From NCBI GenBank assembly GCA_025350325.1, contig JANXYB010000078.1, forward strand, positions 1-64,000: a DNA stretch of 64,000 bases. Direction: 5' to 3'. Both the position numbers and the translations under genes were made by a program. The DNA is from Acidobacteriaceae bacterium. Its GTDB lineage: Bacteria; Acidobacteriota; Terriglobia; Terriglobales; Acidobacteriaceae. This document shows, piece by piece, positions 31,667 to 36,771 of the stretch. The number at the start of each line of letters is the position of its first letter. The first letter of the stretch is position 1. The notes under the pieces were generated by a model. That model was not told the origin of the DNA. It ran no database searches and was given only the letters and a program-made list of their open reading frames with translations.

Positions 31667-31695
31667 TTGACCTCAGATCAGCACGCAGCTATATT
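31667..31695 (+). promoter_or_regulatory. near-consensus sigma-70 promoter of the cys operon
   Basis: TTGACC at 31667-31672 and TATATT at 31690-31695 are separated by exactly 17 bases; each hexamer differs from consensus at one position. Transcription would start around 31701-31703, at or within two bases of the ATG of the Cys-rich leader frame, so that frame would be translated from a leaderless message. Confidence 0.75.
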
Positions 31696-31702
31696 AAGCA
31701 AC

Positions 31703-31771
31703 ATGAGTCTCTGTTCCATGCCGGCCACCTGTTGCGCATGTCGTTATGCGCCGCGCCGGAATATGGGATAA
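31703..31771 (+). CDS. 22-residue Cys-rich leader peptide upstream of cysD
   Basis: The reading frame encodes MSLCSMPATCCACRYAPRRN followed by MG and a TAA stop. Four of 22 codons are Cys (TGT, TGT, TGC, TGT), three of them in the run CCAC at 31730-31741. It begins at or next to the predicted transcription start and has no Shine-Dalgarno sequence. An intrinsic terminator lies 30 bases past its stop and cysD another 28 bases further. This is the layout of a cysteine-responsive transcription attenuator. In mycobacteria, leaderless polycysteine frames of this kind are known regulators of sulfur genes (established). That this one works likewise is an inference. Confidence 0.65.
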   Translation: MSLCSMPATCCACRYAPRRNMG

Positions 31772-31801
31772 GCAACTTCTAATTCAGCATCTCCCATACA
31801 C

Positions 31802-31836
31802 CCCGCGCCGCAGACTATCTGCCACGCGGGTTTTTT
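31802..31836 (+). terminator. intrinsic terminator in the cysD leader (putative attenuator)
   Basis: CCCGCG at 31802-31807 pairs with CGCGGG at 31825-31830, with an inner stem GCAGA/TCTGC (31810-31814, 31818-31822) around the loop CTA, followed by six T residues at 31831-31836. It lies between the Cys-rich leader frame and cysD. The octamer CCGCGCCG occurs both in its 5' arm (31803-31810) and at the end of the leader frame (31751-31758), so the 3' arm could pair with either copy. Confidence 0.85.
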
Positions 31837-31863
31837 ATTGTCCGAGACACACCTGAGGAGTAC

Positions 31864-32778
31864 ATGACCGCAACTGCAACCGATCGCCTTACGCACATGC
31901 AGTTACTTGAGGCCGAGAGCATTCACATCTTCCGCGAAGTGGCCTCTGAATTCGAGAACCCGGTGATGCTCTACTCCATCGGCAAAGATTCTTCGGTCAT
32001 GCTGCGCCTCGCGCAAAAGGCGTTCTACCCCTCGCCGATTCCGTTTCCGCTGCTCCACGTCGACACCGGTTACAAGTTCGCCGAGATGCTTGAGTTTCGC
32101 GACCGCTACACGGCTGAACTCGGCGTGAAGCTCATCGTGTGGCGCAATGAAGAGGCTCTTGCTGACGGCGCCAACCCAATCAAGCTCGGTACTCAGCGCT
32201 GTTGTGGCTTGTTGAAGACGCAGGCGCTGCTGGATGCTCTGCGCGACCATCATTTCGATGCGGCCTTTGGCGGCGCGCGGCGCGACGAGGAAAAGTCTCG
32301 CGCCAAGGAGCGCATCTTTTCCTTCCGCGATAGTGCAGGGCAATGGGACCCGAAAAATCAGCGCCCTGAGTTGTGGAACCTCTTCAATGGCCGCATCGGT
32401 CCTAACGAAAGCATTCGCGTTTTCCCGCTCTCCAATTGGACAGAGCTTGACGTCTGGCACTACATCCATCTCGAAAAAATTCCCATCGTGCCGCTGTACT
32501 TTGCTAAGCCGCGCCGCATGCTGGTGCGTGGCGATGCCCTTATCCCGGTGGAGCAGCCATTTGTGCAGGGCCTGCCTGGCGAAGAGCAATGGGTCAAGTG
32601 CCGCCTCCGGTCGCTCGGTTGCAGCCCGTGCACCGGCGCGATTCGCTCCGATGCTGACACCGTCCCCAAAATCATTGACGAGCTGATGGGCATGCGCAAT
32701 TCCGAACGCGCCAATCGAGTCATCGACCACGATCAGGATGGCTCAATGGAAATTAAAAAGCGGGAGGGCTACTTCTGA
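31864..32778 (+). CDS. cysD: sulfate adenylyltransferase subunit 2
   Basis: The 304 residues match CysD: the PP-loop [17 protein letters not shown] near residue 40, [29 protein letters not shown] near 142 and the C-terminal SLGCSPCTG and EGYF end. With CysN it forms ATP sulfurylase, making APS from sulfate and ATP. The ATG lies only three bases after GAGGAG. The gene is preceded by the Cys-rich leader and terminator, and its stop overlaps the cysN start (TGATG). Confidence 0.97.
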
Positions 32779-34439
32779 TGATCTTCGCTTCAGAGGATTC
32801 GATCGCAACCGCACAGGATTTGGCGTCGAATGAAGCCACCGCCCGCGCCGAGGAGCGCCTCGAGGCTGAACTTGGCAAAGACTTACTGCGATTCAGCACG
32901 GCAGGCAGTGTCGACGACGGCAAGTCAACGCTTATCGGCCGGTTGCTTTACGACTCGCAAAATGTCTACGACGATCACGTGCGTGCGGTTACGCGCAATG
33001 CGACCATCGACTTCGCCCAACTCACCGACGGCCTGCGCGCAGAGCGTGAACAGGGAATCACCATCGACGTTGCCTATCGCTACTTCTCCACGCCCAAGCG
33101 TAAATTCATCATCGCCGACACTCCCGGACACGAGCAGTACACACGCAACATGGCTACCGGCGCATCCACCGCCGACGTGGCCATAGTGCTTGTCGATGCA
33201 CGCAAAGGCATTCTGGATCAGACTCGGCGTCACGCCTGCATCGCGGCACTGCTCGGCATTCCCATCGTCCTCGCCGCCATCAACAAGATGGATCTGGTGG
33301 ACTTTTCGCAAGAGGTTTTCGATCGCTATCATCGCGATCTGCAGGCACTCGCCCGTCAACTTGAGATTCCTGAACTCATCGCCGTGCCGGTCAGCGCTAT
33401 CGACGGCGATAACGTCGTTCATCGCAGCCAGCGCATGCCCTGGTACGACGGGCCAAGTCTCCTCGAGCTACTTGAAACCGTTCCACTCGCTATCGACCGT
33501 TCAAATGCCGGGTTTCGTCTCCCCGTGCAGCGGGTGATGCGCCCTAATCAGGATTTTCGCGGATTCGCCGGTCAGATAACCGCAGGGACCGTGCATCCCG
33601 GCGACGAAATACTGGCGCTACCGTCTGGACGTCGCACCCGTGTTCGTTCCATCACTACGTGGGATGGCGATCTCGACGTTGCACGCGCTCCGCAATCGGT
33701 CGTCCTAACACTCGAGGATGAAATCGACCTCAGTCGCGGGGACATGATCGCTGCGGTGGCCGCCGCGCCGCTTAAGACCACGCATTTTGAAGCTACCGTA
33801 GTCTGGATGCACTCAACACCTCTGCGACCCGGCGCTACGTATTTCCTCAAGCACACCAGCCAGACCGTGCGCGCACGCGTTGTAGAAATTCGATCGCGCA
33901 TTCGCGTCGAGCATCTCGAGCAACACCCGGCCCAGCAGCTTGCTCTCAACGACATCGGTCAGGTCGTCATCGAGACCAGCCGCCCGATTCTCGCGGATTT
34001 ATACCGGGACAGTCGCGCCACCGGCAGCCTCATTCTCATCGACCCCACCGACAACACCACAGCCGGTGCGGGCATGATCCGCAACATTACGGATAGAGAG
34101 GCAGGCAATCTAGATCGTGCAACCCGCGGGTTGCTTGTCATCGGCAATCGCGCTGAGCTTGCATTGCAACTCGAACAATCGTTGCTGCAGTCTGGTGCCC
34201 TGGTTCTTCGCACGCATGTCCCGACTTCGCCGGCACTCGTGGCCATCGCGCATCTCGGCGCTCTGGTGCTGATTGAGAGTGACAGTGCAGAGCCCATTAC
34301 GTTTACCGCTGTCCGCGGCGCAGATACCACTCCTCGTGAACTCGCCTTCGATAAGCCTGACGAAATCTTCAATGAAGTGCAACGCCTCGGAACAATTCCG
34401 ACTGGAGAGGATGACAATGACAACGGCCTCGGCATCTGA
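32778..34439 (+). CDS. cysN: sulfate adenylyltransferase subunit 1 with extra C-terminal domain
   Basis: The first 435 or so of 553 residues are a normal CysN: the G1 motif GSVDDGKST near 43, the G3 motif DTPGHEQY near 114, the G4 NKMD near 170, then two beta-barrel domains. It hydrolyses GTP to drive APS synthesis by CysD. The final 117 residues go beyond normal CysN length. Their start (GLLVIGNRAELALQLEQSLL) has the helical pattern of the APS-kinase N-terminus found in CysNC fusions but lacks the GxxxxGKS/T P-loop, so it looks like a decayed CysC domain. The gene overlaps cysD and cysH. Confidence 0.93.
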   Translation: MIFASEDSIATAQDLASNEATARAEERLEAELGKDLLRFSTAGSVDDGKSTLIGRLLYDSQNVYDDHVRAVTRNATIDFAQLTDGLRAEREQGITIDVAYRYFSTPKRKFIIADTPGHEQYTRNMATGASTADVAIVLVDARKGILDQTRRHACIAALLGIPIVLAAINKMDLVDFSQEVFDRYHRDLQALARQLEIPELIAVPVSAIDGDNVVHRSQRMPWYDGPSLLELLETVPLAIDRSNAGFRLPVQRVMRPNQDFRGFAGQITAGTVHPGDEILALPSGRRTRVRSITTWDGDLDVARAPQSVVLTLEDEIDLSRGDMIAAVAAAPLKTTHFEATVVWMHSTPLRPGATYFLKHTSQTVRARVVEIRSRIRVEHLEQHPAQQLALNDIGQVVIETSRPILADLYRDSRATGSLILIDPTDNTTAGAGMIRNITDREAGNLDRATRGLLVIGNRAELALQLEQSLLQSGALVLRTHVPTSPALVAIAHLGALVLIESDSAEPITFTAVRGADTTPRELAFDKPDEIFNEVQRLGTIPTGEDDNDNGLGI

Positions 34440-35097
34440 ACAATTCGTAGTCACCGCCACCGAGTTCCTCCGCAATCGTCTTGCGCGCGAAGACAATGTC
34501 TGTGTCACCAGCAGCTTCCAGGCTGAAGACATGGTTGTCGTGCATATGGTTCGCGCCATCCTGCCGCGCGTTCCAGTGCTCTTTCTCGAAACCGGTTACC
34601 ACTTTCCCGAGACCATAACCTATCGCAACCAGGCGGTTGCTGATTGGAATTTGAATCTCATCGTGGTCAATCCGGAACGTACCGTGGCCGAACAGGAAGC
34701 TGAATTCGGCATTCTCAATCAGACTGCTCCCGACCGCTGCTGCGCCCTGCGCAAGGTCGAGCCGCTGTTTCGTTCTCTCGCGCCCTACAGCGTATGGCTT
34801 ACAGGCCTACGCCGCGAGCAATCCAAATCGCGCGCCAACCTGCAGGTGGAAGATGCCTTTACCCTCCCCACTGGACAGACCCTTGCCAAGTTGAGCCCGC
34901 TCGCCGAGTGGAAAACGAGCGACGTCTTCAGCTACGCCGAGGCAAACGCCATTCCCCTGCTGCCGCTTTACGAGCAGGGATACACCAGCATCGGCTGCGC
35001 ACCATGCACCAGCCTTCCCTTTGATCCCGATGATCCGCGCTCGGGGCGCTGGTCTGGCCGCAAGCTGGAATGCGGAATTCACCTGCAGGCAACGTAG
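34417..35097 (+). CDS. cysH: assimilatory adenylyl-sulfate (APS) reductase, CysH family
   Basis: I start at the ATG at 34417 (GGAGAGG six bases upstream), giving 226 residues. The [4Fe-4S] cysteine pairs typical of APS reductases, CC in PDRCCALRK and CxxC in GCAPCTSLP, are both present, along with the catalytic ECGIH at the C-terminus. Such enzymes reduce APS directly to sulfite with thioredoxin, so no functional APS kinase is required; this fits the loss of the kinase P-loop in the cysN tail. It overlaps cysN by 23 bases. Confidence 0.93.
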   Translation: MTTASASEQFVVTATEFLRNRLAREDNVCVTSSFQAEDMVVVHMVRAILPRVPVLFLETGYHFPETITYRNQAVADWNLNLIVVNPERTVAEQEAEFGILNQTAPDRCCALRKVEPLFRSLAPYSVWLTGLRREQSKSRANLQVEDAFTLPTGQTLAKLSPLAEWKTSDVFSYAEANAIPLLPLYEQGYTSIGCAPCTSLPFDPDDPRSGRWSGRKLECGIHLQAT

Positions 35098-35111
35098 CGC
35101 CGGAGATGCAA

Positions 35112-35864
35112 ATGGAACTGCTCTTGGGATTTGTCATTGGGGCTCTGATCGCGATGACCGGCGTAGGCGCCGGCAGCATCGTAGCTCCGTTGCTGATCCT
35201 TTTTCTCAAAGTGCCGGTCGACGCAGCCGTCGGCACGGCCCTGGCTTACTCGGCCGCGGTCAAGCTGGTGATCGTTCCCATTCAAATGGCACGGCATCAG
35301 GTCATTTGGCGCACTCTCGCGGTCATGCTTTCGACGGGCATTCCAGGTGTGGTTCTTGGCTCAATCATCTTTCGCCGCGTGGTGCGCAATCACGGCAACA
35401 CACTCTGGCTCTATCTCGCATTGGGAGCGATGATCGCGATACCTTCCGCATGGCATATCTATCGTCATTTCCGGCCCTCGCCTGTGCGGGCGTCGCGACG
35501 AAGCCGCCCTAAATGGCTCGCAGCCGCAATGTTCCCAGTCGGAGCGGAGGTGGGCTTCTCGTCATCGGGAGCGGGCGCGCTTGGCACCATTGCGCTGCTC
35601 GGGCTTACGCCGCTTGAGCCGCTGCAGATCGTCGGTACCGATCTGGCCTTCGGTTTGTGTCTGTCCCTCATCGGCGGCACTATGCACCTTAAAAATAGTG
35701 GCATGGATAATCATCTGTTGTTTAATTTGATTGCCGGCGGCATTCTCGGTGCTCTTGCCGGCGTGGCTCTCGCCTCTAGAATTCCCGCGCGTGCCATGCG
35801 CCTTGCACTTTCGCTCTGGCTGTTTACCATGGGCATTCAGCTTTGCTTTGAGGCACTGCTGTAG
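35112..35864 (+). CDS. TauE/SafE family sulfite/sulfonate transporter
   Basis: From the ATG at 35112 (GGAG six bases upstream) the protein has 250 residues and about eight transmembrane helices in the two-repeat TauE/SafE pattern. The start LLLGFVIGALIAMTGVGAGS and the second-repeat ALGTIALLGLTPLEPLQIVG are characteristic. Members move sulfite, sulfonates or sulfoacetate. Its place 14 bases after cysH suggests export of excess sulfite or import of a sulfur anion; direction is not evident from the sequence. Confidence 0.9.
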   Translation: MELLLGFVIGALIAMTGVGAGSIVAPLLILFLKVPVDAAVGTALAYSAAVKLVIVPIQMARHQVIWRTLAVMLSTGIPGVVLGSIIFRRVVRNHGNTLWLYLALGAMIAIPSAWHIYRHFRPSPVRASRRSRPKWLAAAMFPVGAEVGFSSSGAGALGTIALLGLTPLEPLQIVGTDLAFGLCLSLIGGTMHLKNSGMDNHLLFNLIAGGILGALAGVALASRIPARAMRLALSLWLFTMGIQLCFEALL

Positions 35865-35952
35865 GCCATGGCGCTTGCCATTGTCGTGCCGGGCTGGCGA
35901 TACTGCTTTAGGTACCTTTTCGGGCCGCATCTTTTTCAAAAGCGAGAATCAG

Positions 35953-36771
35953 TTGGAACGTGAGATATACACAGCACGCTTGGCACGTAAGACGTGCATC
36001 TCTGAATCGTCACAATGTTTTCATTTTGAATTTGCTATCGATCAGCTAGAGAGCTTTCCCTATTCCGCTGGCCAGTTCGTTTCCGCCGTCGCTGAAGATG
36101 TGAATGGGAAGCAGCAGACCCGAGCCTACTCCATCGCTTCAGCGGCCAGTGTCAACCAGTTCGATATGTGCGTGAACCGGGTCGAAGGCGGCTTCTTTTC
36201 CAATCACCTTGCCGATCTGCCGGATCTGCCCGTCGGCGGCACCATTCGAATTCATGGACCGCACGGCCATTTCATTCTGCGCCAACCCATCAGCGACTCC
36301 ATCTTTATATCCACTGGAACCGGCGTCGCACCCATGCGCGGCTTTGCGCAGTGGCTCTTCCCCGAAACCGGGCCCGATGCTGGACTGGATCGCAGCGAAG
36401 GAAAAGATATTTGGATGGTCTTCGGCACGCGTCACGAAAGTGAACTCTACTACCAGGACGAATTTGAGGCACTCGCCGAACGCAAATCCAATTTTCACTA
36501 CCTCCCCACCCTCAGCCGCGCGAGCGACAGTTGGAAAGGCCTGCGCGGATACGTGCAGGACCACGTTGCAAAGATTGTCGAGGAGCGCGCTGCGCGACTG
36601 GGCATATCTCTGCCCGTGCCACCGCCCGATCCGGCGATTCCGCCCTCAGAATTGCGATTCGATATTTATGCCTATATTTGCGGTCTGAATAACATGGTCG
36701 CTGGCGTGCGCGAAAAATTAGCGAGCTACGGCTGGCATCGTAAGCAGATCATCTTCGAACGTTACGACTGA
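35953..36771 (+). CDS. ferredoxin-NADP reductase-like FAD/NAD(P)-binding oxidoreductase
   Basis: I choose the TTG at 35953, since homology starts at once (EREIYTARLARK) and upstream in-frame sequence overlaps the transporter gene; this gives 272 residues. FAD-binding RAYSIASA and GGFFSNHL are followed by an NADP-binding GTGVAPMRGFAQW and the CGLNNMVAGV segment, ending in ERYD as in bacterial FNRs. In the sulfur operon it may supply reduced ferredoxin to a sulfite reductase, which is not encoded in this window. An upstream TTG at 35881 is an alternative start. Confidence 0.85.
   Translation: MEREIYTARLARKTCISESSQCFHFEFAIDQLESFPYSAGQFVSAVAEDVNGKQQTRAYSIASAASVNQFDMCVNRVEGGFFSNHLADLPDLPVGGTIRIHGPHGHFILRQPISDSIFISTGTGVAPMRGFAQWLFPETGPDAGLDRSEGKDIWMVFGTRHESELYYQDEFEALAERKSNFHYLPTLSRASDSWKGLRGYVQDHVAKIVEERAARLGISLPVPPPDPAIPPSELRFDIYAYICGLNNMVAGVREKLASYGWHRKQIIFERYD

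Follow-up and report, generated by a model that had tools for sequence, protein, structure and literature searches.

Between a promoter and cysD in this Acidobacteriaceae genome lies a short reading frame rich in cysteine codons, and the question that it raises is whether its translation reports the supply of charged tRNA-Cys to the genes downstream. The initial annotation of the window, by which we mean the whole stretch of 64,000 nucleotides that was analysed, proposed a leaderless Cys leader and an attenuator upstream of cysD. This proposal is supported by the conservation of the arrangement in relatives, and we regard it as highly probable that the locus is a ribosome-mediated transcription attenuator sensing charged tRNA-Cys. 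By direct reading, all parts of the candidate attenuator are present in the order promoter, ATG, 22-codon Cys frame, 30-base gap, intrinsic terminator and cysDNH, at the following positions:

31667..31695, + strand: promoter TTGACC-17-TATATT (TTGACC 31667-31672, TATATT 31690-31695)
31703..31771, + strand: putative leaderless Cys leader frame MSLCSMPATCCACRYAPRRNMG with its stop codon; Cys codons at 31712, 31730, 31733 and 31739
31746..31768, + strand: leader tail (region 2), by folding prediction the partner of region 3
31792..31814, + strand: region 3, the TCCCATA flank and the terminator 5' arm (folding prediction)
31802..31836, + strand: intrinsic terminator; its hairpin (31802-31830) is CCCGCG..CGCGGG enclosing an inner stem, and a T tract follows
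31855..31860, + strand: GAGGAG, the Shine-Dalgarno-like sequence of cysD
31864..32778, + strand: cysD, sulfate adenylyltransferase small subunit (NCBIfam CysD match)
32778..34439, + strand: cysN, sulfate adenylyltransferase large subunit, with a C-terminal extension
34417..35097, + strand: cysH, (P)APS reductase, start picked inside a longer open frame
35070..35864, + strand: TauE/SafE permease
35914..36771, + strand: FAD/NAD-binding oxidoreductase, start approximate

The same reading confirms what had been claimed of the promoter, with its 17-base spacer and an ATG (31703) seven bases after the -10, and of the 22-codon frame, with four Cys codons (codons 4, 10, 11 and 13) and a stop 30 bases before the terminator. 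Taken singly the parts are unremarkable, with two promoters found in 4 kb against 2.3 expected and one terminator against 4.1 expected; it is their combination and its conservation that carry weight. When a TTGAC box, a -10, a start codon 4-13 bases after the -10 and a short frame are required, with no demand for Cys, one site is found on both strands of the 64-kb window, and it is the leader. Admitting any TTG box and demanding Cys yields one additional site (27757, - strand). The leader RNA folds with a z of -2.78 relative to shuffles. No Rfam family matched the window or the leader region, the latter searched at a permissive threshold, and six leader peptides had no match in NCBIfam or Pfam.

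The closest named relatives of this cysD are those of Acidobacterium sp. S8 (86%), an Acidobacteriaceae MAG (85%) and Granulicella sp. (82%). Because a Shine-Dalgarno-like GAGGAG precedes it, cysD itself is not leaderless. Judging from the overlap, the TauE/SafE permease gene is probably part of the cysDNH operon, and the oxidoreductase gene is perhaps the operon's last. The CysN profile match stops near residue 443 of the 553 residues of CysN, leaving about 110 residues beyond it (window 34108-34436); this extension showed no match to the CysC kinase part of the fused CysN/CysC model, and is perhaps a degenerate kinase.

A loose rule, asking for a short frame upstream of cysD that holds three or more Cys, two of them adjacent (CC), finds a Cys frame at 91 of 125 distinct cysD loci and at 70 of the 85 loci of the family set, window included, leaving 15 of the 85 without one. 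The set of 125 was obtained from 130 loci by removing five duplicates; it holds 124 acidobacterial loci and one from a Victivallales MAG (L026), which has no Cys frame upstream of cysD. L006 and L024 have short upstreams, L038, whose match starts at a contig end, was dropped, and five cysD rows with 56-58% identity were left out. By the same rule a frame is found at 6 of 39 non-acidobacterial cysD loci, and on the other strand at 30 of the 125. Some of the 91 frames are chance, and the other-strand matches are partly real, belonging to divergent genes with a leader and promoter of their own, several with a hairpin and T tract. With at least four Cys per eight codons there are 59 leaders upstream of cysD versus 10 on the other strand. 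ATP-sulfurylase loci can be ruled out as regular carriers, with three weak matches upstream of 26 genes by the loose rule and none upstream of the 26 by a strict rule. In a phylum sample consisting of the loci returned with sequence (18 new), other classes have a clear leader at three of ten loci (L193, L196 and L200, all of one family) and a poor one at two of ten, and neither of two loci from another family in the same class has a clear leader. MAGs with clear leaders include a gp6 MAG (L016), L017, L018 and L056.

Comparison of the cysD leaders in related genomes, a check that the initial annotation had suggested, bears it out in that the Cys run is kept while the peptides otherwise diverge quickly. 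In a same-genus relative whose cysD is 90% identical, the leader is MSLCSMSAVCCACCCAPRRTMG, set against MSLCSMPATCCACRYAPRRNMG in the window; by eye, all four window Cys are Cys in this relative, one encoded by TGC versus TGT. Searched with a peptide profile of ten leaders, just 8 of 80 family genomes gave a match, two of these being spurious on reading, which indicates that leader peptides diverge fast while the Cys run, promoter and hairpin remain. Such a pattern is what would be expected of an attenuator leader. An excess of change at third positions is absent from 14 gap-free leaders (0.29/0.31/0.32) and was dropped as a proof of translation. The Cys codons of the 59 dense leaders are mostly TGT (288 TGT, 110 TGC), contrary to the window's cysD, cysN and cysH, which prefer TGC (9 to 3); a rarer codon may sharpen stalling, or the bases may serve the RNA fold.

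The start of the frame was examined in the 59 dense-Cys leaders (at least four Cys per eight codons), a set outside which the window's own leader, with its three per eight, falls. To avoid a promoter-biased choice of start, the best TTGAC box ahead of the Cys run was located, and the ATG or GTG that came next was taken as the start. A TTGAC box is found upstream in 26 of the 59 leaders, compared with 5 of 59 other-strand chance windows, and in 25 of these 26 the first ATG or GTG lies 5-11 bases past the -10, in frame and with no stop codon before the Cys run. Applied without the Cys demand, the promoter and start rule finds 29 frames upstream of cysD, every one with at least three Cys, as do all 11 frames found on the other strand of the cysD upstreams; TGY triplets in the 29 frames are distributed 188/50/22 over frames 0/+1/+2. 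Control loci totalling 381 kb (26 ATP-sulfurylase, 39 non-acidobacterial cysD and 9 other loci of the window's genome) give four frames by this rule, none of them Cys-rich. Leaderless genes were predicted at an average of 13.3% in three Acidobacteria genomes, according to the figures given in PMC3160421.

We define a terminator as a hairpin with an energy of -8 kcal/mol or lower and a T-rich tract after it. One is present in 44 of the 91 loci with a Cys frame, window included, compared with 10 on the reverse strand and 5 in shuffled stretches. It is missing by this definition in the other 47, among which visual inspection does show a hairpin with a T-rich tract at, for instance, L002, L003 and L108. 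The window's hairpin has a predicted energy of -17.6 kcal/mol and is followed by six T from 31831. After exclusion of L023, a wrong hairpin call, 43 loci entered the pairing tests, and in these a span of 22-55 nt (median 34) separates the leader stop from the hairpin.

Against the terminator 5' arm and the flank upstream of it, the leader tail forms stronger pairing than its shuffled versions (mean z -1.60, 20 of 43 at p<=0.05), and own pairs of tail and 5' arm reach -17.7 kcal/mol versus -14.3 for random re-pairing (p 1e-4), with the same result in a subset of 32 less similar loci. A separate set of 15 leaders upstream of a reductase gene agrees (mean z -1.86; own versus random p 1e-4), although all these p values are optimistic because the loci are related. 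In the window itself the pairing of tail and region 3 amounts to -19.8 kcal/mol (p 0.025 in one shuffle run and 0.035 in another). Complementarity beyond both shuffles and re-pairing points to the leader tail and 5' arm as a trp-type antiterminator. The initial annotation had drawn a different partner. The identical octamer that it described, CCGCGCCG, is indeed found at 31751 and 31803, but its pairing with the terminator 3' arm is rejected for the cysD loci by shuffles (mean z +0.15, 0 of 43 at p<=0.05) and by random re-pairing, than which it is weaker (p 0.995). The 15 reductase leaders lean toward that earlier pairing, with a 3'-arm mean z of -0.51 and three below -1.8. The TATGGGA (31762)/TCCCATA (31792) stem, which had been offered as a further conformer, is present and lies within the enriched pairing; it does so together with the CGCG of the octamer.

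We propose that these parts would act as follows. Transcription would start on the A of ATG 31703 or on a base adjoining it, and with a start at the ATG the ribosome would load on the 5' end and follow the RNA polymerase. With ample Cys-tRNA it would reach the stop codon (31769) and cover the tail (31746-31768), the terminator (31802-31836) would form, and transcription would end before cysD. With Cys-tRNA scarce, the ribosome would wait at Cys codons 10-13 and leave the tail free to pair with the flank and 5' arm as these emerge, so that the polymerase would read into cysDNH.

Folding with and without a ribosome, another comparison that had been suggested at the outset, gives a mixed picture. 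Taking 13 bases from the first A-site base onward as covered, and the nascent RNA as far as the terminator loop, the predicted number of tail/region 3 pairs is 16.8 with the A site on Cys10 (31730; MFE -24.9) and 16.5 with it on Cys11 (31733; MFE -23.7), about nine of the expected pairs in these two states being with the 5' arm itself; it is 13.0 with the A site on Cys13. With the ribosome at the stop codon it is 0, and the base stem of the terminator has a probability of 0.99. Stalled and stop states thus differ in nascent RNA. However, tail and region 3 also pair there with no ribosome (14.6 pairs), and the model therefore explains an untranslated leader poorly; in the full RNA with no ribosome the leader folds on itself and the terminator forms (0.99). 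At equilibrium the terminator wins even with the ribosome at the Cys codons, its probability in the full RNA of the window still being 0.71-0.95, and over 44 loci the median is 0.875, with 10 below 0.5, one of them the wrong hairpin call. Equilibrium switching did not discriminate, and was counted against the model. Since the terminator is favored at equilibrium, antitermination would have to be kinetic, depending on folding order and polymerase speed, and we consider this preference the main weakness of the computed mechanism.

The window's genome holds two further Cys leader modules, both missed by the initial annotation:

G000:C74, about 33.2 kb (L232, L243): second leader MHGCPCCRRCMPLRAHR, hairpin GCCCGCG..CGCGGGC, before a sulfite/nitrite reductase family gene
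G000:C74:79547-79612 (L274): third leader MALCPTPTICCACCRAPRRSCG, TTGACC-17-TATAGT, hairpin and T tract

The reductase gene is the only PF01077 gene found in the genome, and all its NCBIfam matches lie below their cut-offs; it may well encode a sulfite reductase. The gene downstream of the third leader encodes an outer-membrane beta-barrel protein that carries a CarboxypepD_reg domain, and the tail/arm pairing of this leader is strong (p 0.002); that of the second leader is not significant (p 0.31). No Cys leader frame was found in this genome upstream of eight PALP-family genes (of ten matches) or of the sulfate transporter. A first pattern search of the genome was discarded, having missed the known leader and given 5 forward and 3 reverse matches versus 4 and 1 in a reversed control.

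Across the family, the reductase occurs at 62 places in 60 of 100 genomes. Of the 30 places with sequence, 22 have a Cys frame upstream and 3 on the other strand. The reductase matches L254 and L265 look false; the strict rule does find good leaders at L252 and L265. For the pairing set, L254 (inside a coding region) and L265 (a poor candidate) were left out, and 15 of 20 had a terminator as defined above. Over 1.05 Mb of loci the strict rule finds 62 distinct leaders, the window's included: 31 precede cysD, 15 lie upstream of cysD on the opposite strand, 14 precede the reductase, and one each precedes a 1-Cys peroxiredoxin (L257 239, + strand) and a YeiH-type transporter (L268 114, + strand). 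Because these loci were chosen for cysD or the reductase, the count does not measure the background of the rule, which can be gauged, to a limited extent, from the window together with the control loci (381 kb). Single cases of a leader also precede a TauE permease (L017 2709, - strand) and cysH (L287).

Genes divergent from cysD have leaderless Cys leaders of their own at L001 2663 (- strand), L090 2733 (+ strand), L091, L109, L110 and others, and several of them encode Oar-like outer-membrane proteins (two checked). Among the opposite-strand genes of the strict rule, two that were checked are beta-barrel/CarboxypepD_reg proteins and one is TauE; the remaining ones either were assigned from their N-terminal residues or sit at the edge of a contig or locus, and three of the leaders (L102, L105 and L180) stand about 0.7-1.1 kb from cysD. 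That receptor genes carry their own Cys leaders suggests that Oar-like outer-membrane receptors take up sulfur compounds.

Certain lineages depart from the full module. In one leader family, ...CC(R/C)LSNIFDGC... (L007, L008, L010, L012, L111, L116, L118-L120, L122, L123, L126, L131 and L134), GACGGGTG is invariant at the leader end and CACCC lies downstream; there is only a weak terminator-like hairpin, except in L126, which has a strong terminator. Other Cys-leader lineages have no terminator hairpin as defined here, and the output of lineages that lack one may be Rho-dependent or translational. A CTATNGACA-like element stands by the cysD start in 8 of 51 loci without a leader (L004, L009, L013, L015, L019, L020, L033 and L069) and in 0 of 74 with one, the pattern having been chosen after looking; it is possibly an operator for a transcription factor doing the same job.

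We think it likely that the Acidobacteriaceae and some other Acidobacteriota have a cysteine regulon free of transcription factors, in which a portable module (TTGAC promoter, leaderless Cys frame and antiterminator/terminator) has been copied before genes for sulfate activation, (P)APS reductase, sulfite reductase, outer-membrane receptors, TauE/YeiH transporters and peroxiredoxin, and in which lineages that lost the terminator switched output.

Three other explanations have to be set against transcription attenuation. The hairpin could be minor and the stalled ribosome could instead free the Shine-Dalgarno sequence of cysD, which would be translation attenuation as in mycobacteria, where leaderless Cys frames act on translation of the downstream gene (as described in passages of PMC9031893). 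This would accommodate the 47 of 91 loci that lack a terminator, and the full-length MFE of the window does pair CUCCCA (31791-31796) with UGAGGAG (31854-31860) of cysD. We nevertheless regard it as unlikely, given the terminator in the other 44, which in 43 of them keeps its short distance from the leader stop, and the covariation of the leader tail with the terminator 5' arm. That a constitutive terminator or RNA hairpin lies by a chance Cys-rich frame, with no sensing at all, draws on the commonness of the single parts and is hardly credible: chance would not account for the conservation, the in-frame start by the promoter and the co-evolution, nor for the recurrence of the module before sulfite/nitrite reductase, cysH and outer-membrane protein genes.

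Cys-rich upstream frames have also been described for copper, and the nascent peptide might sense a metal or the thiol redox state in place of Cys-tRNA. The leaders are very Cys-rich, with up to 12 Cys, a 1-Cys peroxiredoxin gene of one relative is preceded by such a leader, and a redox role has been speculated for mycobacterial Cys frames (in the part of PMC4633059 that deals with them). Yet the peptides diverge quickly and have little in common beyond the Cys run, which fits codon sensing better than a binding site, and the majority of the observed targets are sulfate-assimilation genes; sensing by the peptide is accordingly a very improbable reading. If transcription attenuation by charged tRNA-Cys is correct, it provides a mechanism for sulfur assimilation in a widespread soil phylum and ties leaderless translation to transcription attenuation for cysteine. 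Sulfur-related genes would then be predictable from leaders alone, and the lineages would form a natural series in which the sensor, the Cys codons, is constant while the output seems to vary.

Among known systems, leaderless Cys frames occur in mycobacteria (PMC4633059, in part), where Canestrari et al. 2020, as cited in PMC9031893 and PMC13236596, described cysteine-responsive translation attenuators, and Cys leaders lacking terminators were predicted in Mycobacterium, Propionibacterium acnes and Bifidobacterium (in the predictions of PMC1262725). The likeness to the mycobacterial polycysteine attenuators lies in a leaderless short frame, neighboring Cys codons and a place at the 5' end of sulfur or cysteine operons, and here, judging by promoter geometry, a putative leaderless Cys-run frame precedes cysteine genes. 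The mycobacterial attenuators, as these sources portray them, are cysteine-responsive with translational output and no terminator, whereas the window, in another phylum, combines an intrinsic terminator with a co-evolving antiterminator, and a terminator is found in 44 of the 91 loci. The uORFC-8-2 motif, a predicted Cys attenuator with a terminator before cysS in Rhodobacterales, shares an upstream frame with tandem Cys codons and an intrinsic terminator, with readthrough on Cys-tRNA shortage proposed; as outlined in PMC8632094, it is one sequence family of Rhodobacterales at cysS (cysteinyl-tRNA synthetase), to which the window, with cysD in Acidobacteriaceae, does not belong. In Streptomyces lividans, trpL2 and ilvL are also leaderless leader peptides with attenuator structures (sections of PMC8079986), and differ from the window in sensed amino acid, phylum and targets. 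A 2010 survey, in its remarks on phyla such as Acidobacteria, found almost no function for attenuators there (PMC2965389), and none of the matches listed in the open-licence literature describes a cysteine attenuator from Acidobacteriota. Every component has a precedent in other systems; what appears to be new, as far as we know, is their combination, its occurrence in this phylum and the apparent regulon.

The trp/his-type transcription attenuators of enterobacteria work by a logic of 1:2, 2:3 and 3:4 pairing. The window resembles them in this logic and differs in the sensed amino acid, the phylum and the targets: it has a leader frame rich in codons for the end product, an intrinsic terminator, and pairing between the tail and the 5' arm. 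The window probably holds a cysteine attenuator that has a leaderless leader and follows trp-type logic, and, counting this one, its genome carries at least three modules of this kind.
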